Both the position numbers and the translations under genes were made by a program. This document shows positions 39,769-56,427 of a DNA stretch of 64,000 nucleotides, one piece after another. This DNA is from Chitinophaga pinensis (lineage in GTDB: Bacteria; Bacteroidota; Bacteroidia; NS11-12g; UBA955), in assembly GCA_945877575.1 (NCBI GenBank), contig CAMDUE010000002.1, forward strand, positions 124,001 through 188,000, in the 5' to 3' direction. Each line of letters begins with the position of its first letter. Position 1 is the first letter of the stretch. Under the pieces are notes generated by a model that saw nothing but the letters and a program-made list of their open reading frames with translations, did not search any database and was not told the DNA's origin.

Positions 39769-40779
39769 ATGATTCAGGACATAGAAAAATACGAAAAAGA
39801 AATAGATGGATATGTGATTGAAAGCTCGGCACAATTAGAAGAGTTTCGTTTGACGTATTTGTCTCGCAAGGGAATCATAGCACAATTATTTGAAGATTTT
39901 AAAAATTTGCAGGGAGAAGATAAAAGATCTGTTGGAAAGCCTTTGAATGTTTTGAAGAAAAAGGCGGAAGATCTTTTTGAACAGAAGAAAGCGGAATTTG
40001 AAAATCAAGACGGAGCAAGTGATGAGGGTATAGATTTTAGTTTACCTGTTTATCAAGATATGCCAGGAAGTGTTCATCCGTTGAAAGCGGTTGAAAATAG
40101 ATTGATTGATATTTTTTATTCTTTGGGATTTGATTTAGCAGATGGTCCGGAGATTGAAGATGACTGGCACAACTTTGGGGCTTTGAATTTTGCTGATGAC
40201 CATCCTGCAAGGGATATGCAAGATACTTTTTTTATTGGTGAACATGTTTTGAGAACGCATACTAGTTCAGTGCAAATCAGAGAGATGCAAAAGCATGAAC
40301 CTCCTTTCCGATTGATTATGCCTGGTAGGGTTTACCGAAATGAGGCGGTGAGTTCAAGAAGCAACTGTTTCTTCCATCAGATTGAGGGATTGTATGTTGA
40401 TCAAGGAGTTACGTTTGCGGATTTAAAGCAAACTTTGTATTATTTTGTTCAGCAATTTTTTGGAAAGGGAAAAGAGGTTCGATTTAGATCTAGTTATTTC
40501 CCTTTTACTGAACCCAGCGCAGAAATGGATGTTTGGGTTGGATTAGATACAGAAGAAAATAAACGACTTACAAAAGGAACAGGTTGGTTGGAAGTTTTGG
40601 GTTGCGGAATGGTACATCCCAATGTTTTGGATGCCTGCGGTATAGATTCTCAAAAATTTTCCGGCTTCGCCTTTGGGATTGGTATGGATAGAATTACCAT
40701 GTTGAATTACGGCATCAATGATATTAGAGATTTATTCTTGAACGATGTTCGTATGTTAAAACAGTTTCAGGGACAATGA
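39769..40779 (+). CDS. pheS: Phenylalanyl-tRNA synthetase alpha subunit
   Basis: A 336-residue class II synthetase subunit that charges tRNA-Phe together with PheT. An N-terminal coiled coil (about 1-85) precedes the core. Motif 1 region is PLKAVENRLIDIFYSLGFD, motif 2 is RLIMPGRVYRNEAVSSRSNCFFHQIEGLYVD (split: GRVYRNE at about 187), and motif 3 is FAFGIGMDRITMLNYGI (about 304). The substrate pocket VFGCGM-type stretch reads EVLGCGMVHPNVL. pheT is not adjacent. It overlaps lpxH by 4 bp. Confidence 0.96.
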   Translation: MIQDIEKYEKEIDGYVIESSAQLEEFRLTYLSRKGIIAQLFEDFKNLQGEDKRSVGKPLNVLKKKAEDLFEQKKAEFENQDGASDEGIDFSLPVYQDMPGSVHPLKAVENRLIDIFYSLGFDLADGPEIEDDWHNFGALNFADDHPARDMQDTFFIGEHVLRTHTSSVQIREMQKHEPPFRLIMPGRVYRNEAVSSRSNCFFHQIEGLYVDQGVTFADLKQTLYYFVQQFFGKGKEVRFRSSYFPFTEPSAEMDVWVGLDTEENKRLTKGTGWLEVLGCGMVHPNVLDACGIDSQKFSGFAFGIGMDRITMLNYGINDIRDLFLNDVRMLKQFQGQ

Positions 40780-41570
40780 TCTATTTTGCTAGCGACTTCC
40801 ATTTGGGTATGGGCGTAAACGCCGATGAACGGGAAAGAAAAATTTGTCGCTGGTTGGACTTTGTATCGGAAGATGCCAGTGATATTTTTTTACTGGGAGA
40901 TTTGTTTGACTTTTGGTTTGAGTATAAAAAAGCAGTTCCCAAAGGATTTGTCCGTTTTTTGGGGAAGTTGGCGGAGTTAACGGATAAAGGAATTCGTATT
41001 CATGTTTGCGTTGGTAATCACGATTTATGGATGCGCGATTATTTGGAAAAGGAATGCGGGGTCAGAATTTTTAGGGAACCTGAAGTGCATGAGTTTTCGG
41101 GAAGAACATTTGTATTGCATCACGGAGATGGATTGGGTCCTGGAGACGAAAAGTATAAATTATTGAAACGTATTTTTACCAATAAGTTGGCTCAAGGCTT
41201 TTTTGGGATGCTTCATCCGGATTTGGGAATTCGTTTGGCATCGGGATGGAGTAAAAAAAGTAGATTGAATCAGCCAAAATGGGAGGAAACTTTCCAGGGA
41301 AATGATAAGGAGTATTTGGTGCAGTTTTGTGAGGATTGGTCGTTGGTAGATGGTAGGGGGACTTTGGTACATGGTAGGGGGTCTTTGGTAGGGGGTAGTG
41401 GGAATGTGGTAGATTATTTTGTGTTTGGGCATAGGCATTTGTTGTTGGATGTGACCTTGAGTAATGGGGCTTCGAGATATATCAATTTGGGACAATGGTT
41501 TACGGGATCGGCGTATGCGAAATTTGACGGTGATGAACTAGTGGTTCATGAGTTTGAAAAAATAAAATAA
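40776..41570 (+). CDS. lpxH: UDP-2,3-diacylglucosamine hydrolase-like phosphoesterase with heptad-repeat insert
   Basis: A 264-residue calcineurin-like metallophosphoesterase of lipid A synthesis. Motifs are FASDFHLGM (about 4), LLGDLFDFWF (about 39), VGNHDLWM (about 83), LHHGDGLGPGD (about 113) and VFGHRHL (about 215). Residues about 188-213 are an insertion of heptapeptides LVDGRGT, LVHGRGS and LVGGSGN, encoded by heptamer array E, placed just before the last His motif. Metal ligands are intact, so the enzyme is probably active. Such a repeat at this position is not a normal part of the family as I know it. Confidence 0.9.
   Translation: MIYFASDFHLGMGVNADERERKICRWLDFVSEDASDIFLLGDLFDFWFEYKKAVPKGFVRFLGKLAELTDKGIRIHVCVGNHDLWMRDYLEKECGVRIFREPEVHEFSGRTFVLHHGDGLGPGDEKYKLLKRIFTNKLAQGFFGMLHPDLGIRLASGWSKKSRLNQPKWEETFQGNDKEYLVQFCEDWSLVDGRGTLVHGRGSLVGGSGNVVDYFVFGHRHLLLDVTLSNGASRYINLGQWFTGSAYAKFDGDELVVHEFEKIK
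41338..41414. repeat. Heptamer array E inside lpxH (11 words)
   Basis: Eleven exact 7-bp words (GGTCGTT, GGTAGAT, GGTAGGG, GGACTTT, GGTACAT and so on) entirely within the reading frame. The pair GGTAGGG-GGACTTT recurs in array F. The translated frame avoids the TAG triplets in the words. Confidence 0.93.
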
Positions 41571-44678: not shown

Positions 44679-45029
44679 ATGGGAATGAGACAAGAAAAAT
44701 TTGCTCGACAAATCCAGAAGGATTTGGGAGAGTTGCTATCGGCGCACCGACACGAATGGTTGACGGGTGCGTTTGTTACTATATCGAAGGTGGTTGTAAG
44801 TCCAGACTTGGGTTATTTAAAGGTGTATTTGAGTTTGTACAACAACCAAAACAGAGCAGCGATTTTGGAGCATTTGAATGGCGAAATCAACAAGGAAATC
44901 CGCCACAAATTGGCTCAAAAGATCAGAAACAGCGTAAGAACGGTACCTGAAATACGGTTTTACGAAGACGAAACACTTGACTACGTTGAAAAAATGGAAG
45001 AGTTGTTTCGGAAGATCAAGGATCAATGA
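44679..45029 (+). CDS. rbfA: 30S ribosome-binding factor A
   Basis: A 116-residue KH-like protein that helps 16S rRNA 5'-end maturation. It has RQEKFARQIQKDLGELL, TISKVVVSPDLGYLKVYLSLY (about 35-55) and the end VRTVPEIRFYEDETLDYVEKMEEL, the RbfA signature. It starts 1 bp after rpoN and overlaps the next gene by 4 bp, so rpoN-rbfA-lolC are cotranscribed. Confidence 0.94.
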   Translation: MGMRQEKFARQIQKDLGELLSAHRHEWLTGAFVTISKVVVSPDLGYLKVYLSLYNNQNRAAILEHLNGEINKEIRHKLAQKIRNSVRTVPEIRFYEDETLDYVEKMEELFRKIKDQ

Positions 45030-46243
45030 AAGCGGTTTGGCTGATAGCGAAATCCTACTTTTTTTCGAGGAAAAATCCATCGGCCATCAACATCATTACG
45101 GGAATTTCTTTGGGGGGATACGCGCTCGGCGCGATGTCGTTGTTGGTGTTATTGAGCGCTTTGAACGGCTTTGAGGACAGCATTTTTGGTGGGATTAAGG
45201 CGACGTCGGCGGATTTGGTAATTGGTAGGGGGACTTTGGTAGAGGGTAGGGGGGCGTTGATAGAGGGTAGTGGGTCGTTGGTAGAGGGTAGGGGGGCGCG
45301 GTTGTCGGGTTTCGGGAGTCGGGTTTCGGGAGACGGGAGGTATGTGTGTCAGAGTTTGATAGATAAGGCCATTGTGAAGTATGGAGATAAGCAGACGGTG
45401 GCGAGGATTTGGGGGGTTGATAGCAATTTTTTTAAAGTTTATAATGCTGATAGTTTGGTGGTTGCGGGGAGTGCTCAGTTGGGTGCGCGCGATGCTTGGA
45501 TGTCGGAGAGTTTGGTGTATCAATTGAATATTGAGCAGGTGGATAGGCCCGTTGAGGTTATGACGCCATCGAGGACGGCGGGATCATTGGCTCAGACTAC
45601 CTTAAATTTGGAGGAATTGTCGGTGAGGGCGATGTTTAGAATTAGGGAAGAGAATCATGAGAACACCTTGATTGTGCCGATAGAGGTGGCAAGGGGCTTG
45701 TTTGAACGCGAAGATTTTGAAGGGCGTTGGGATATAAAAGTGAAAGACCCATTAAAGATTGAAGAGGTAAAGGGTGATTTGATTGAAAAGCTGGGTCCAG
45801 GTTTTAAGGTAATGGATAGAGCCGAACAACATGGAACTTTGTACCGCATGTTTAATACGGAAAAGTGGTTTTCGTTTGCGTTGTTGGCGTTTGTTTTGTT
45901 GTTGATCAGCTTTAATTTGTTTGGATCTATACGAATGATGCAAATTGATAAAGCCCAAGATTTGAAGATGTTAGCGGCCTTGGGAATGGGTGATTCTGGA
46001 TTGAGGTGGATCTTTTTGCTTCAAGCAATATGGGTTGCCTTGGTGGGTACAGTGATAGGAATTTTATTGGCTTTAGGCCTGATTTGGGTTCAGTTGAGAT
46101 TTGGTATGGTGACCACACAAAGCAGCTTTGAGATGGTTTATCCGGTAAGTTTGAGAATGGGAGATATTGGATTGGTTGCCGGTTTGAATTTGGCAATTGG
46201 ATTGATGGTTGGGGTTATTGCTTCTGCACAAAGCTCAAAATAG
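45026..46243 (+). CDS. LolC/LolE-type lipoprotein-release ABC permease with heptad-repeat insert
   Basis: A 405-residue MacB/FtsX-family permease. One N-terminal membrane helix (SAINIITGISLGGYALGAMS ... NGFED) and three C-terminal ones (about 280-300, 320-345 and 370-395) flank a periplasmic domain. Residues about 64-106 are a repeat-encoded insert (LVEGRGA, LIEGSGS, LVEGRGA, LSGFGS) at the start of the periplasmic domain, just after SADLVIG. LolCDE-type proteins move lipoproteins out of the inner membrane, usually as an essential function. The ATPase partner is not adjacent. Its 3' end overlaps pth by 29 bp in antisense. Confidence 0.87.
   Translation: MKAVWLIAKSYFFSRKNPSAINIITGISLGGYALGAMSLLVLLSALNGFEDSIFGGIKATSADLVIGRGTLVEGRGALIEGSGSLVEGRGARLSGFGSRVSGDGRYVCQSLIDKAIVKYGDKQTVARIWGVDSNFFKVYNADSLVVAGSAQLGARDAWMSESLVYQLNIEQVDRPVEVMTPSRTAGSLAQTTLNLEELSVRAMFRIREENHENTLIVPIEVARGLFEREDFEGRWDIKVKDPLKIEEVKGDLIEKLGPGFKVMDRAEQHGTLYRMFNTEKWFSFALLAFVLLLISFNLFGSIRMMQIDKAQDLKMLAALGMGDSGLRWIFLLQAIWVALVGTVIGILLALGLIWVQLRFGMVTTQSSFEMVYPVSLRMGDIGLVAGLNLAIGLMVGVIASAQSSK
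45217..45342. repeat. Heptamer array F inside the LolC-type gene (18 words)
   Basis: Eighteen uninterrupted 7-bp words (126 bp, 42 codons). GGTAGGG-GGACTTT at the left is shared with array E; GGTTTCG and GGAGACG at the right are shared with arrays B and I. The translation is seven-residue repeats. Confidence 0.94.
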
Positions 46244-48610: not shown

Positions 48611-49024
48611 ATGTTAAATCGTCCGATTCGGGTTTTGATTGCCAAAGTAGGGCTAGACGGTCACGATCGCGGTGCTAAAGTCATTGCGGCTGCCTTGCGT
48701 GATGCGGGAATGGAAGTTATCTATACGGGTTTACGTCAAACGCCAGAGATGGTGGTTCAAACGGCGTTGCAAGAAGATGTTGACGCCATTGGTATCAGCA
48801 TTTTGAGTGGTGCCCACAATACGGTTTTCCCAAGAATCATCAGTTTGATGCAGGAAAAGGGTTTGGAAGACGTCTTGTTGATAGGCGGCGGAATCATCCC
48901 TGACGGGGATGCTTTGGCATTGAACGAACAGGGTGTAGCGAAGTTGTTTCCTCCGGGGACGGAGATGGGGGAAATAGTGGGTTTCATAACTGAAAGAGTC
49001 GAGAGTCGAGAGTCGAGAGACTAG
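48611..49024 (+). CDS. Cobalamin-binding domain protein (methylmalonyl-CoA mutase C-terminal type)
   Basis: A 137-residue stand-alone B12-binding domain. It has [22 protein letters not shown] with the DxHxxG ligand motif (about 16), SILSGAHN (about 65) and [26 protein letters not shown], the signature of the mutase small module. As a separate protein it may be part of a two-subunit mutase or isobutyryl-CoA mutase-like enzyme; no large subunit is in the window. The last codons ([10 protein letters not shown]) and the stop are heptamer repeat sequence (array G). Confidence 0.88.
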
Positions 49025-49064
49025 AGACTAGGGTCTGTGGTCTGTAGTCGGTGGTCTGTGGGCG
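48995..49064. repeat. Heptamer array G (10 words)
   Basis: Three exact AGAGTCG words, two AGAGACT words and then AGGGTCT, GTGGTCT and GTAGTCG types, all 7 bp. The left part is the C-terminal coding end and stop of the B12-binding protein gene; the right part lies upstream of comB. Confidence 0.92.
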
Positions 49065-49084
49065 ATTGTAATAAAAAATTAATA

Positions 49085-49942
49085 ATGAAAAATATTACTA
49101 CTGTTTTGTCGCCGGCGTTGTTTGAGGCAACGGTTGGGGGCGTGGAGAATAAGAATGTGGTGGTGATTGATATTTTGAGGGCTACAACCACCATGTGTGT
49201 GGCCATGGAAAACGGTGCCAACAGCATTTGGCCGGTTGATTCGGTTCAGAAGGCGGCTCAAGCCGGAAGTTCATTTTTGACGGCGGGAGAGCGGAATGGT
49301 GAAAAGGTGGAAGGCTTCGATTTGGGAAATTCTCCGCAAGAATTTAGTGAAGAAGTTGTTAAAGGTCGCGACATTGTTATGACCACCACCAATGGAACTA
49401 AAGCTATTTCATTGTCGGAGGGTGCGAAGAATATTTACATTGCGTCTTACAGGAATATATCGGCGGTGGTTCAGGAGTTGCAGAAGCAACCGGAAGACAT
49501 TGTTTTGTTTTGTTCGGGATGGAAGGATCAAGTGAATTTAGAAGATACGTTGTTTGCGGGGGAAGTTATTTATTTGGTAGGGGGTAGTGGGTATCAGGTA
49601 GCGGGTAGCGGGGGGCGGGAGTCTGAGGTCGATAGTCCGAAGTCGGTAGTCGGTGGTCGGGAATCTGAAGACTCAGGACCAATTACCAATTACCAATTAC
49701 CATGTACCAAGTACCAAGTACCAATTACCAGCTACCAACTAAACGATAGTTCCTGGTTGGCGCTGAAGCTTTATGAGGAAGTTAGCGGCGAGGAGGGAAC
49801 GTTTTTGGAGAATGCATCGCATGTGCAGCGGTTTAAGAGTCTGCATATTGAGTCTGACCTGGAGGTGTGTTTGAAACGAGATACGAGTGAGTTGGTGTTG
49901 AGGGTGGAACAAGGAATTATTCGTAGATTTGTAGTAACGTAA
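49085..49942 (+). CDS. comB: 2-phosphosulfolactate phosphatase-like protein with heptad-repeat insert
   Basis: A ComB-family Mg-dependent phosphatase (285 residues from ATG 49085; the upstream GTG at 49037 lies inside repeat array G). Motifs are VVVIDILRATTTMC (about 23), EGFDLGNSPQEF (about 73), MTTTNGTKA (about 98), LFCSGWKDQVNLEDTLFAGEVI (split; about 142) and the C-terminal FLENASHVQRF. Residues about 164-220 are a 56-residue insertion coded by array H. The insertion follows LFAGEVIYLV, between conserved helices. ComB makes sulfolactate for coenzyme M-like compounds; its role in bacteria of this kind is not settled. Confidence 0.85.
   Translation: MKNITTVLSPALFEATVGGVENKNVVVIDILRATTTMCVAMENGANSIWPVDSVQKAAQAGSSFLTAGERNGEKVEGFDLGNSPQEFSEEVVKGRDIVMTTTNGTKAISLSEGAKNIYIASYRNISAVVQELQKQPEDIVLFCSGWKDQVNLEDTLFAGEVIYLVGGSGYQVAGSGGRESEVDSPKSVVGGRESEDSGPITNYQLPCTKYQVPITSYQLNDSSWLALKLYEEVSGEEGTFLENASHVQRFKSLHIESDLEVCLKRDTSELVLRVEQGIIRRFVVT
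49576..49743. repeat. Heptamer array H inside comB (24 words, 168 bp)
   Basis: Twenty-four 7-bp words in unbroken register, 56 codons in frame. The left third uses GGTAGGG and GGTAGCG words, the middle uses GTAGTCG and GTGGTCG, and the right third uses AATTACC, AAGTACC and AGCTACC, the reverse complements of GGTAATT, GGTACTT and GGTAGCT. The two ends can therefore pair in RNA. Confidence 0.95.
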
Positions 49943-49962: not shown

Positions 49963-51109
49963 ATGGAGATTCAAAACTCATATATACAATCAAATACGTG
50001 GGATTTTTACGGGAGAAACGAAGAACTTGAAAATGTAAAAAGCATACTTTCAAGGGGAAGATGGTTCTTTCTGAAAATTACGGGTAGGAGGAGAATTGGG
50101 AAGACCACGTTGGTTCAAAAAGCGATCCAGCAAGTTGAACATAGCAAAACCTTTTATATGCAAGTACCTGATGCAGATGCTGCAGGTGTGGTTTTAGCTG
50201 CGATCGGTTAAGGTGTTGATGGATAATCATGGTGGATTTGAGCCATATCGTATGCTTTTTCTATGGAATTTATTTGAAGGTGTACCAAAGTTTTATCGGG
50301 ATGCGTTTGAGCAAGGGGTGCTGGGCGCAGATAGAGAAGCATTGTTGTAAGCGTTATTTTTTAGAAGTTCTTCACCGTTGAAAAGTGAGGCTGAAAACTG
50401 GTTTCTGCATGATTTGAAAGGAAAATATGACACCTTATTGCAGTATTTGGCGAAGAATCCGGGGGCGAATTATGGTGATTTATCGGCTGCAGGTTCATCA
50501 ACTTCAGATGATGTAAAACAATTGGGTGGATATCTCGCGCATTTGGAGAAGAAGTTGGGAATGATTGTAAAAAAGCAACCCATATTTGGAAAAAGTACAG
50601 CGAGAACCTCAAGGTATTATTTGGCTGATAATTTTTTGAAGAGCTGGTTATTTGCATTAAAACACCCGGTTCAGGCTCAGAATTTTAGAGTCAAGGAAGA
50701 CCTCATTAAACAAGCAAACGAAGCTTTGGAGACGATCGAAGGACATTCTTTGGAATTAATGACGGCCCAATTATTTCAAGAATTGAGCAGAAAAGGGGTT
50801 AAAGGGTATGATTTGCAATACCAAGTGCAGGGATATTGGGACAGAATGAACCGAGAAATAGACTTGATAGCCTTAATGAAGAATGAAATTTGGTTTGTTT
50901 CTTGTAAGAGGAATCCAGAAAAGCAGTTTTCGGTGATGCCAGAACTGTTTGCGAATGCAACATTTTTCATGGAAAACCACAAGCAATTTCAAGAATTAAA
51001 CAGAGTATATGTGTGCATTTCGCCGTATTTCAATCTGGAACAAAGAACAAAGATTCACGATATGGGCGGTAAAGCTATCAGCATTTCGGAATTGGTTCAA
51101 GAACTCTGA
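49963..51109 (+). pseudogene. Broken ATPase of the DUF234/archaeal-ATPase family
   Basis: The 5' piece (49963-50211, 82 codons) has FYGRNEELENVKSIL and the P-loop ITGRRRIGKTTLVQKA and then stops at TAA. A second reading frame resumes at about 50213 (VLMDNHGGFEPYRMLFLWNLFEGVPKFY), meets one in-frame TAA at 50348, and continues to 51109 with the C-terminal DUF234 restriction-like domain (SLELMTAQLFQEL ... DRMNREIDLIALMKNEIWFVSCKRN). The Walker B and middle of the ATPase, over 100 codons in homologues, are missing. I conclude an internal deletion plus a stop codon. Such genes are typically mobile and dispensable. Confidence 0.85.
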
Positions 51110-51780: not shown

Positions 51781-52245
51781 ATGTCCAAAATACTCATTCT
51801 GAATGGGCCGAATTTGAATCTTCAGGGAAAGAGAGAGCCTGAGATTTATGGTCGCGAAACCATTGAAGGGTATTTGCAAAATGAGGCTGAAACGTTGATT
51901 TTTCAGCAGTCAAACATTGAAGGCGAATTGATCAACTTTCTTCACGCGGCAGAAGAAAATACCGAAATATCTGGAGTGGTTTTCAATGCCGGCGGATATT
52001 CACATACTAGCATCGCCCTGGCCGACGCTGTGAAAGCCATTTCGAAGCCCGTCATTCTGGTTCATATCAGCAACATTTACGCTCGCGAAATTGAACGCCG
52101 AACCGATCTGTTATCGGCCTACGCCGCCGGACAAATTGTGGGTTTGGGTTTGATGGGGTATAAGTTAGCGATTAGAGCTATTTTTTCGGGTTTCGGGGAT
52201 CGGGTTTCGGGAGACGGGGATCAGGAGCCACAGACCACGGACTAA
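51781..52245 (+). CDS. aroQ: 3-dehydroquinate dehydratase, type II
   Basis: A 154-residue shikimate-pathway enzyme. It has ILNGPNLNLQGKREPEIYG (Asn and catalytic Arg/Tyr region, about 6-24), VVFNAGGYSHTSIALADAV (catalytic His about 81) and PVILVHISNIYARE. The usual length is about 140-145; here the true C-terminus (GYKLAIRAI) is followed by FSGFGDRVSGDGDQEPQTTD, coded by heptamer array I, so the tail is a repeat-derived extension. It forms an operon with purQ and probably with the next hydratase. Confidence 0.95.
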   Translation: MSKILILNGPNLNLQGKREPEIYGRETIEGYLQNEAETLIFQQSNIEGELINFLHAAEENTEISGVVFNAGGYSHTSIALADAVKAISKPVILVHISNIYAREIERRTDLLSAYAAGQIVGLGLMGYKLAIRAIFSGFGDRVSGDGDQEPQTTD

Positions 52246-52270
52246 TGGCCACAGACTAAAGACTATAGAC
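52187..52270. repeat. Heptamer array I (12 words) spanning the aroQ end and the next gene's leader
   Basis: CGGGTTT, CGGGGAT and CGGGAGA words followed by CACAGAC, CACGGAC, TAAAGAC and TATAGAC words. The aroQ stop codon (52243-52245) lies in it and the next ATG (52272) directly follows it. Confidence 0.93.
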
Positions 52271-52271
52271 C

Positions 52272-53069
52272 ATGACAAACATAACAACTGAAATAACCGA
52301 AGGAATTCTGACGATTACCATCAACAGGGAGTCGAAGATGAATGCGTTGAACATTGAGACCTTGCAAGAGATTAAGCAGGCCGTTATTGAGGGCAATGAG
52401 AATCCGGAAGTGGTGGGAATGATATTGACCGGCGCGGGAACCAAGGCGTTTGCTGCGGGAGCAGATATTTCGGAATTTGCGAATTTTAATGTGGAGAAGG
52501 GCACTCAGATGAGCGCTGACGGACACGATGTAATGAATACCATCGAAGATGGACACATGCACCAGTGGGATGGGACTAAGACCAAGTTTGTGGTGGCGGC
52601 GGTGAATGGATATGCGCTGGGTGGAGGTTGTGAGTTGGCGATGGCCTGTCACATGAGAATTGCGAGCAGCAATGCGAAGTTTGGACAACCTGAGGTGAAT
52701 TTAGGGGTTCCTCCGGGATACGGCGGAACGCAGCGTTTGATACAGTTGATTGGCAAGGGAAGAGCCTTGGAGATGTTGTTGACGGGCGACGCGATTGATG
52801 CGCAGACGGCCTTGAATTACGGCTTGGTGACCAAAGTGGTTGATCAAGCGGAATTGTTGACGGTTTGCAGAGAAGTGGTTAAGAAGGTGGCGTCAAAAAG
52901 TCCATCGGCAGTGCATAAAATATTGAAGTGCGTGAGCGATTTTTATCGTCCAAACGTGAACGGAATGCAGAGAGAAATCTATGAATTCGGGTCGGCGTTC
53001 AGCACCGAAGACTTCAGCGAGGGCACAGATGCGTTCTTGAACAAGCGCAAAGCGGAGTTTAAGAGGTAA
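52272..53069 (+). CDS. Enoyl-CoA hydratase/isomerase family protein
   Basis: A 265-residue crotonase, hydrating trans-2-enoyl-CoA in beta-oxidation or branched-chain catabolism. It has ITINRESKMNALNIETL, GAGTKAFAAGADISEF (oxyanion hole, about 57-72), VVAAVNGYALGGGCELAMACHMRIAS (about 101) and the catalytic GxPEVNLGVPPGYGGTQRL (Glu about 140, Gly-rich loop). The whole leader between aroQ and this ATG is heptamer sequence, with no Shine-Dalgarno and no -7 box, so it is likely cotranscribed with aroQ. Confidence 0.92.
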   Translation: MTNITTEITEGILTITINRESKMNALNIETLQEIKQAVIEGNENPEVVGMILTGAGTKAFAAGADISEFANFNVEKGTQMSADGHDVMNTIEDGHMHQWDGTKTKFVVAAVNGYALGGGCELAMACHMRIASSNAKFGQPEVNLGVPPGYGGTQRLIQLIGKGRALEMLLTGDAIDAQTALNYGLVTKVVDQAELLTVCREVVKKVASKSPSAVHKILKCVSDFYRPNVNGMQREIYEFGSAFSTEDFSEGTDAFLNKRKAEFKR

Positions 53070-53937: not shown

Positions 53938-56427
53938 ATGGCGAACAGAGACGAATTTGACGAGTTTGAAGAAGGCGGTGCCTCCCAAACTAACACCATG
54001 GAAGTGGTCATGCGCGACTACCTTCCGTATTGGCCGGTAATTACCTTGGCCGCCATTTTGGGATTCTTCGCGGGTTCCATGTATCTCAAGACCCAGGTGC
54101 CCGTGTATCAGGTGGATGCAAAGATTTTGCTTAAAGATGAGGTGAGCCAGTCTACCGATGCGATGATGAAGCAGGTGATTACCGGGCAGTCTCAGAGTCA
54201 GGTAGATGGTGAGTTGGAGATCATTCAGAGCTACGCGGTGATGCGCGATGCGGCCATTCGAGCGAATGCTCAGGTGGAGTTTGTTTGGGATGGAAGAATC
54301 CGCAAGCAATACGAAGACGCGGAAAACATGGCCATTGAGGTGTTGGTTGATACGTTCAAGGTTTCCGGGGGAAGTTTTACCGTGGATTATAAATCCGATT
54401 CCAAAACCCTCACCGTGGGTGGCGAGGACGTTCCTTGGGGCGTATGGACGGAAGTGGAAGGAAACCGTATTTATGTCCAACGGAAAGAAGGAATTGAAGA
54501 AAAAGAATTGCAGGAATTGTCGGCCTCATCGGCGCATATTTTGGCGCTGAATATTTATACTTTAGGGGATGCGGCCAATAGAATCAAGGGATCGTTTGTG
54601 GCGGAGCCCGATAAAAAGGAGTACTTGTTGAACCTCAGTTTGACCAATACCAATACCACTACGGGTAAACGTTGGTTGACGGGTATCATTGAAGCTTATC
54701 AAGTGCAAACGCAGGCGGAGAAGCGCAAAAAGAATCAGTTGATGATGGAATTCATTGACGATCGGTTAAATTTTGTGGGACAAGACCTGGACAGCATTGA
54801 GGGTTCTTTGGTGAACTTCAAGAAGGTCAATAATGTGGAGTTTTTGAGCATGGAAGCTCAGCGGGCGTTGGCGAAGGTGAGCGAGGGCGATAAACAGACT
54901 TCGCAGTTGGATCTTCAACTGTATATGCTTGACCATTTGGAGCAGTACGTGAAGGGCAGAATGGGCAAACCGGGCATGCTTCCGGTAGATGTGGGCATTC
55001 AGAACAGCATGCTGAATGAACTGATTTTGAAATTGTATGAGGCGGAGCAGGCGTTGGTGACTCAAACCACTACCGTGGGTCCGAACAGCGACTTATTGAA
55101 GCCTTTGAAGGCAAAAATTGCGACCTATAAAAGCGGAATATTGGAGAGCATTGCGAACGCTAGAACGCAGATGAAGGTGATGAAGAACCGCGCCGATGAT
55201 GACTTCCAACGTTTCAGTCAGCAGTATAGAGGCATGATGGGATTGGTACCTGATAAAGAGCGTGAGTTGTTCAATATTACCCGTCAGCAGAAAATCAAAG
55301 ACGCACAGTTCACCTTGTTGTTGCAGAAACGCGAGGAAATGGCCATCCAAAATGCGGGTATTTTGAGCGATATAAAAGTAGTGCAAGAGCCCAGCGGAGG
55401 CACACAAATATCGCCGGTACCCACTCAAACTTTGGGTATTACCACGGGTGCTTTGGTGGCGATAGTATTGTTGGTGTTGTTTTTAAAGAGCAGTTTGAAC
55501 AATAAAATTTTGTCTCGCTCAGAAATTGAGGCGCGCACCAAGATCAACGTGGTGGGCGAGATCATTCAAACGGAGACCGATTCACCGCTGATCATGAAAG
55601 ACGGCAATCGTACGCTGATTGCGGAGCAGTTTAGAGGCCTTAGAACCAGTTTGAGTTATTTGACGCCTTCGGGAAAATCGAAGTTGTTGGTGACGTCTTC
55701 GTTCCCGGGGGAAGGAAAATCGTTCATTGCCTCGAACATTGCCTTAGGTTACGCCTTAGCGGGTAAGAAGACGGTGATCATTGAGTCGGATTTGCGCAAG
55801 CCCAACATTGCCAAGCACTTCAGCATATCGAGAAGAACGGGTTTGAGTGTGTACTTGTCTGGAAATACCAAAAAGGAAGACATTCTATTTGATGTAGAGG
55901 GATATCCCAATTTGTATGTAATACCGGCAGGACCCATACCTCCCAACCCGGTAGAATTGATCTTGAACGGAAGATACGAGGCCTTGATTCAAGAGTTGGG
56001 CGAAGACTTTGACCACGTGGTGATTGACTGTCCGCCGTTGGGATTGGTAACCGACGCGCAAGAAATTGGACAGTGGGTAGATTACGCGGTGTTGGTGGTT
56101 AGACATAGATATACCCCGAGAGAGGCGGTGAGCAACATTTTGGATCGCACCAAGCGCGAGAATCGTTTCAAGCAATCGGCGATTGTGATGAACGGCTTGA
56201 AGGGCGGAATCAGCGGCTACGGTTACGGATATAACTACGGTTACGGTCGCTACGGATACGGATACGGCTACGGCTATGGCTATGGCTATGGCTATGGCTA
56301 TGGCTACGGAAAGAGCTACGGTTATGGGTATTATGGCAGTGAGAAAAAGCGCAAGAATCGTTTGGGTAGCTTGGTTTGGAACATCTTTGTGGCACCGTTT
56401 GGAGCGTTTTTGGGTATTCGCAAATAA
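53938..56427 (+). CDS. Wzc-like chain-length determinant tyrosine autokinase with Gly-Tyr tail
   Basis: An 829-residue polysaccharide copolymerase plus BY-kinase. An N-terminal membrane helix (about 28-46), a large coiled-coil periplasmic part, and a second helix (about 502-518) precede the kinase: Walker A SSFPGEGKSFIASNIA (about 587), Walker A' VIIESDLRKPN (about 615) and Walker B HVVIDCPPLG (about 698). The C-terminus holds a tyrosine cluster, here 19 tyrosines mainly as Gly-Tyr dipeptides (about 760-800), written by a near-perfect 6-bp tandem repeat. Autophosphorylation there controls polymer export. The wza-type gene lies directly upstream. Confidence 0.93.
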   Translation: MANRDEFDEFEEGGASQTNTMEVVMRDYLPYWPVITLAAILGFFAGSMYLKTQVPVYQVDAKILLKDEVSQSTDAMMKQVITGQSQSQVDGELEIIQSYAVMRDAAIRANAQVEFVWDGRIRKQYEDAENMAIEVLVDTFKVSGGSFTVDYKSDSKTLTVGGEDVPWGVWTEVEGNRIYVQRKEGIEEKELQELSASSAHILALNIYTLGDAANRIKGSFVAEPDKKEYLLNLSLTNTNTTTGKRWLTGIIEAYQVQTQAEKRKKNQLMMEFIDDRLNFVGQDLDSIEGSLVNFKKVNNVEFLSMEAQRALAKVSEGDKQTSQLDLQLYMLDHLEQYVKGRMGKPGMLPVDVGIQNSMLNELILKLYEAEQALVTQTTTVGPNSDLLKPLKAKIATYKSGILESIANARTQMKVMKNRADDDFQRFSQQYRGMMGLVPDKERELFNITRQQKIKDAQFTLLLQKREEMAIQNAGILSDIKVVQEPSGGTQISPVPTQTLGITTGALVAIVLLVLFLKSSLNNKILSRSEIEARTKINVVGEIIQTETDSPLIMKDGNRTLIAEQFRGLRTSLSYLTPSGKSKLLVTSSFPGEGKSFIASNIALGYALAGKKTVIIESDLRKPNIAKHFSISRRTGLSVYLSGNTKKEDILFDVEGYPNLYVIPAGPIPPNPVELILNGRYEALIQELGEDFDHVVIDCPPLGLVTDAQEIGQWVDYAVLVVRHRYTPREAVSNILDRTKRENRFKQSAIVMNGLKGGISGYGYGYNYGYGRYGYGYGYGYGYGYGYGYGYGKSYGYGYYGSEKKRKNRLGSLVWNIFVAPFGAFLGIRK
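56210..56337 (+). repeat. GGNTAY hexanucleotide tandem repeat in the wzc tail
   Basis: GGTTAC, GGATAC, GGCTAC and GGCTAT units repeat with few interruptions. They code Gly-Tyr dipeptides and could expand or shrink by slippage without a frameshift, since each unit is two codons. Confidence 0.85.

Follow-up and report, generated by a model that had tools for sequence, protein, structure and literature searches.

Tandem heptanucleotide arrays in many dispersed copies are known from cyanobacteria such as Calothrix and Nostoc, where they are called STRR. Heptanucleotide repeats are also the most frequent class of long simple repeat in the majority of genomes surveyed (PMC4679880). Among them, the TAACTGA heptads described in 2015 occur in Beggiatoaceae, cyanobacteria and some Bacteroidetes, and where they lie in ORFs the stop-free strand is translated as LSVISYQ (PMC4679880). 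GGGAATC heptamers of Xanthomonas and Nostoc are at least partly intragenic in 7-11% of cases, and some form inverted repeats (PMC4692102). Rickettsia palindromic elements (RPE), dispersed elements of 100-150 bp, are found in ORFs without breaking the frame (PMC3767692). Here, a heptad array in the interior of comB was analyzed in a stretch of 64,000 nucleotides from Chitinophaga pinensis, referred to as the window (Table 1). The best explanation, to which we assign a probability of about 0.78, is that a segment of ComB whose length varies among relatives received a dispersed heptanucleotide repeat, which kept the reading frame and is probably translated as a tolerated flexible insert in a working enzyme.

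Table 1. Positions of comB and of the heptad arrays discussed, numbered within the window
Feature	Position	Strand	Remarks
comB, 2-phosphosulfolactate phosphatase family gene	49085..49942	+	PF04029 E 2.3e-68; 285 codons from ATG plus stop, uninterrupted
24-heptad array in comB, in frame	49574..49741	+	from word table; 168 nt = 56 codons
In-frame array in LpxH-like gene (40776-41570)	41343..41411	+	protein repeat LVxGRGx
In-frame array in LolC/E-type permease gene (45026-46243)	45218..45341	+	protein repeat LVEGRGA
Separate array between methylmalonyl-CoA mutase C-terminal-domain gene and comB	48990..49068	.	
Array forming the C-terminal end of aroQ (51781-52245) and the following gap	52182..52276	+	

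The initial annotation had placed a 24-word array at 49576-49743, which is the same array as the one listed here in the GGTA register, and the heptapeptides it quoted, from LVGGSGY to PITSYQL, are correct. The words run from GGTA through CGGG and GTC to TACC types, the second half being roughly the inverse of the first. The array is also, as had been claimed, the longest in-frame case, not only in the window but in a larger genome sample of 848 kb, where the next longest measures 154 nt. In an alignment of 30 ComB proteins the array segment is found only here and is absent from all 29 homologues. The reported position directly after LFAGEVI in an intact-looking comB is supported, and the PDB homologues 2yyv and 1vr0 align on either side of the array with about 6-8 residues between the aligned parts. 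The description as a 56-residue insertion is only partly accurate, since the array does comprise 56 codons but is not a pure insertion. In the nearest homologue, a protein of 236 residues from a same-genus genome, the spacing from FAGE to ND is 13 residues and the native segment at the array site reads RLQENGYEIE. Here the spacing is 59 residues; if the array accounts for 56 of them, about ten native codons have been replaced and the protein has grown by about 46 residues net, with room in the alignment for a few native codons surviving as heptads. Relatives differ in length at this site, a behavior that would be typical of a loop. A single-sequence AlphaFold2 model of ComB (mean pLDDT 37.5) was too poor for placing the insert, and no relatives of the insert were found in the PDB. 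The array DNA had no match among plasmids in a BLAST search whose low-complexity filter may hide some, and no comB was found in the 74%-complete assembly of the array-bearing sister species G011.

The comB array belongs to a genome-wide family. The sample covered 848 kb of 2.5 Mb, about a third of a genome in 30 contigs, and when 30 matches in 42 nt were required, the period detector reported 55 stretches of period 7, compared with none at periods 4, 5, 8-11 and 13. After four of these had been dropped by eye as ordinary sequence and the lpxH array, which the detector had missed, had been added by hand, about 52 real arrays were counted: 41 intergenic or at gene ends and 11 inside intact ORFs. 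Arrays are strongly depleted within genes in this sample, with p-values that are rough because the genes were called with a greedy ORF caller that overstates coding (95%). Convergent gaps hold 20 of the 40 placed intergenic arrays, compared with 104 of 659 gene pairs (16%; p 5e-7). At one such site the genes overlap by 4 nt in three relatives, while a 255-nt gap filled by an array separates them here, which identifies the array at that site as an insertion. RNA folding z-scores lie below -2 in about half of the intergenic arrays, and at another gap site two relatives carry an apparent ordinary terminator hairpin; the intergenic arrays may possibly act as terminators. CGGG words stand ahead of GAC-type words in 25 of 27 cases with both strands pooled, and the same block order recurs in G011 (L289 1082-1310 and 1997-2141). 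Upstream of comB, the methylmalonyl-CoA mutase C-terminal-domain gene takes its last codons and its TAG stop (49022-49024) from the separate array. The window also holds a hexanucleotide repeat with the consensus CGGCTA in about 16 copies (56214-56309).

The hosts of the 11 internal arrays are an M16 protease, an LpxH-like protein, a LolC/E-like permease, ComB, an ATP-dependent DNA ligase, an M1-peptidase-like protein named from sequence alone (two arrays), a TauE-type permease, a DUF6929 protein and two proteins without a Pfam match. That all of them are in frame is partly an outcome of the search, as in-gene arrays were found via intact ORFs. The coding strand of most in-gene arrays, at least 11 in number, is the stop-free TACC or CCCG strand. 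Homologues have a shorter or different linker at the majority of these positions, and same-genus homologues of the LpxH-like and LolC/E-type proteins lack the array at the respective sites; no DNA ligase homologue was found among the compared loci. As a class, the in-gene arrays have a periodicity of 21 nt, since identity at lag 21 exceeds that at lag 7 in 8 of the 11, whereas in intergenic arrays the difference has a median of -0.10 (p 4e-4). The exceptions are the arrays of ComB, the ligase and one of the peptidase arrays. With identities of 0.72 at lag 7 and 0.59 at lag 21, the comB array resembles the intergenic ones; lacking the 21-nt signature, it provides no evidence that it has long been under selection as coding DNA, and it may be young. 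Arrays of other words, with a 21-nt super-period, occupy two of the same in-gene sites in the sister species G011. A series is possible that leads from fresh, intergenic-like arrays such as that of comB to 21-nt-periodic, stop-free ones such as those of lpxH, lolC and the TauE-type permease. As a tentative extension, which we consider rather doubtful, heptad arrays could be a recurrent source of linkers that enter loops or domain linkers, are pruned of stops and grow in steps of 21 nt, which would leave sister species with different array-coded linkers at the same sites.

The PF04029 match of the comB ORF exceeds the gathering score. NCBIfam equivalog cut-offs are missed by this ComB; the array was rejected as the cause of this, and of the same result for LpxH, since array-free homologues, in the case of ComB from the same genus, miss them too. 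All 38 near-invariant positions, those shared by at least 28 of the 29 relatives, are retained: all 33 that precede the array and all 5 that follow it. The identity difference between the C-part and the N-part equals the family average, meaning that the C-part has diverged no more than in relatives. Neither stops nor frameshifts were found within the ORF, and the sequence examined gave no signs of splicing, of a frameshifted product or of a pseudogene. Judging from the intact frame and the conserved residues, ComB is probably active. A competing explanation is that comB is an early pseudogene, in which a recent in-frame array has abolished activity while the rest of the gene is too young for decay. 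The intergenic-like state of the array is consistent with this, as are the strong hairpin predicted in the comB mRNA (-63.7 kcal/mol, z -3.5) and the state of the adjacent downstream gene (49963-51109), which is split into two ORFs with an ATPase_2 part and a DUF234 part and looks like a broken ATPase gene. However, the complete set of conserved residues, the normal divergence of the C-part and a frame open across 24 words argue against a pseudogene, and other in-gene arrays lie in LpxH- and LolC/E-like genes, which are usually essential in Gram-negatives. For these reasons we regard a pseudogene as unlikely.

The array is open in only one of six frames, which is the frame of comB; on the coding strand, the other two frames contain three and five stops. 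When its words were shuffled, the frame was open in 3% of 20,000 permutations, and intergenic arrays trimmed to the same 168 nt have 16% of their frames open. We infer that an open in-frame array is uncommon, but that with many insertions no targeting into frame is needed. According to the initial annotation, the arrays of three genes share one frame of the GGTAnnn words that avoids TAG. Stop avoidance does apply to lpxH, lolC and comB, whose arrays contain 18 TAG out of phase and none in codon phase, the latter being a requirement of any intact ORF. A literally shared frame is impossible: with seven not being a multiple of three, successive words pass through every codon phase. The informative part is the changed words: in these arrays every third word is changed (GGGGACT, GGGGTCT, TGGGTCG, TGGGTAT, CGGGGGG), the words in the TAG phase being the altered ones. 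Adding or removing one or two words of the comB array ends the protein just past the array, at 216-223 residues, while three words keep the frame, which explains why surviving in-gene arrays would grow by 21-nt steps. The same property would suit a phase-variation switch, in which one or two heptads gained or lost would truncate ComB and a change of three would restore it. A precedent exists in H. influenzae, where phase variation of hmw1A is controlled by heptanucleotide repeats. Nevertheless, a switch in comB appears quite improbable, as the words are degenerate, the longest perfect tract of 25 nt is short for frequent slippage, and a metabolic enzyme would be an unusual phase-variable target.

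Beyond this genome, the distribution of the repeat is patchy. This genome has 388 exact occurrences of the pattern of four GGTAnnn words, one same-genus genome has 20 and one same-family genome 46; none was found in the other relatives searched, although such zeros are weaker than they look since draft genomes may lose repeats in assembly. The pattern is present in 59 of the 395 genomes of a phylum sample, in a number of which a reversed control pattern also scores, meaning that 7-nt repeats in general are present there. Among the matches listed for named genomes, cyanobacteria form the largest group, with many contigs of Nostoc, Calothrix, Fischerella and Mastigocoleus, alongside many other phyla. 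Among the matches listed, 16 of 270 arrays lie inside ORFs, several of them as QLPITNYQ-type peptides. Two of three orthologous gaps in G011 (L281-L283) carry arrays of other words (GTCAGCG, GTGATCG, CTCTCAC), and in the third case the two genes of G011 overlap by 4 nt, which suggests a fast turnover of words and arrays. The GGTA-heptad pattern was also seen on 34 viral contigs (L293-L326), several times at contig ends, and phages are a possible route of spread. Mobilization by a RAYT/REP system was rejected because no Y1_Tnp (PF01797) match exists in this genome or in G011.

The recurrence of heptapeptides of the type PITNYQL and QLPATSY within ORFs of several phyla could be taken to mean that the insert is adaptive, a new segment useful to ComB for which the array was selected. 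This seems very unlikely, as the same DNA words give the same peptides in unrelated proteins, so that insertion alone explains them, and arrays are strongly depleted inside genes; a search of the accessible literature on PITNYQL-type peptides returned nothing relevant. An assembly artefact, that is, an array mis-joined or mis-counted within comB, is hardly credible: repeats do break assemblies, and this genome is in 30 contigs, but the two sides of the array are halves of one comB in order and in frame, and a word count wrong by one or two would have closed that frame.

For the preferred reading of a tolerated in-frame insert, the repeat would have multiplied in the genome by copying and slippage, mostly into intergenic gaps, and one copy would have entered the length-variable segment of ComB, displacing about ten codons. 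It would have been kept because it has a whole number of codons, is open in the comB frame and is harmless there, and a mechanism of in-frame targeting would not be required. The array would then be translated as a flexible stretch of 56 residues in a ComB that probably still works. As a counterpoint, the strong RNA hairpin of the array could lower expression. The genome shows how selection filters and reshapes heptad repeats that land in genes, and it provides a natural experiment on where, and to what extent, housekeeping enzymes can accommodate foreign sequence. The possible series of arrays would make the passage from a simple DNA repeat to a protein linker testable.

Like the cyanobacterial STRR, the arrays described here have a tandem 7-nt unit (24 heptads in comB) and occupy many, mainly non-coding loci (about 41 of 52). 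Unlike them, they combine several word types in an ordered mosaic of blocks, lie in frame within genes in 11 of about 52 sampled cases, and occur in a host that is non-cyanobacterial and has a T9SS sorting tail. What they share in sequence with the cyanobacterial arrays is a GGTA-word pattern, and heptads can arise independently. The TAACTGA repeats are likewise heptads of scattered phylogeny that are mostly intergenic and rarely in ORFs, but they consist of one fixed word, lie mostly just 5' of start codons and, within ORFs, affect mainly protein ends or hypothetical proteins (PMC4679880); neither TAACTGA nor its reverse complement is found among the 24 words of the comB array. The GGGAATC heptamers are also G-rich and dispersed, but mostly comprise four units, have been the subject of G-quadruplex studies and lie mainly between tandem genes, whereas convergent gaps are preferred here (PMC4692102). 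With regard to the palindromic RPE, the comB array has a predicted hairpin (z -3.5) and a roughly inverted word order, which may or may not amount to a comparable palindrome. RPE differ in having no heptad structure and in being defined sequence families of Rickettsia and Wolbachia (PMC3767692). In the accessible literature, no description was found of the mosaic word order, of the shift from 7-nt to 21-nt periodicity within genes, or of arrays in the interior of likely essential enzymes. Dispersed heptad repeats as such, also inside ORFs, are already known, and the comB case is a variant of these rather than a new category.
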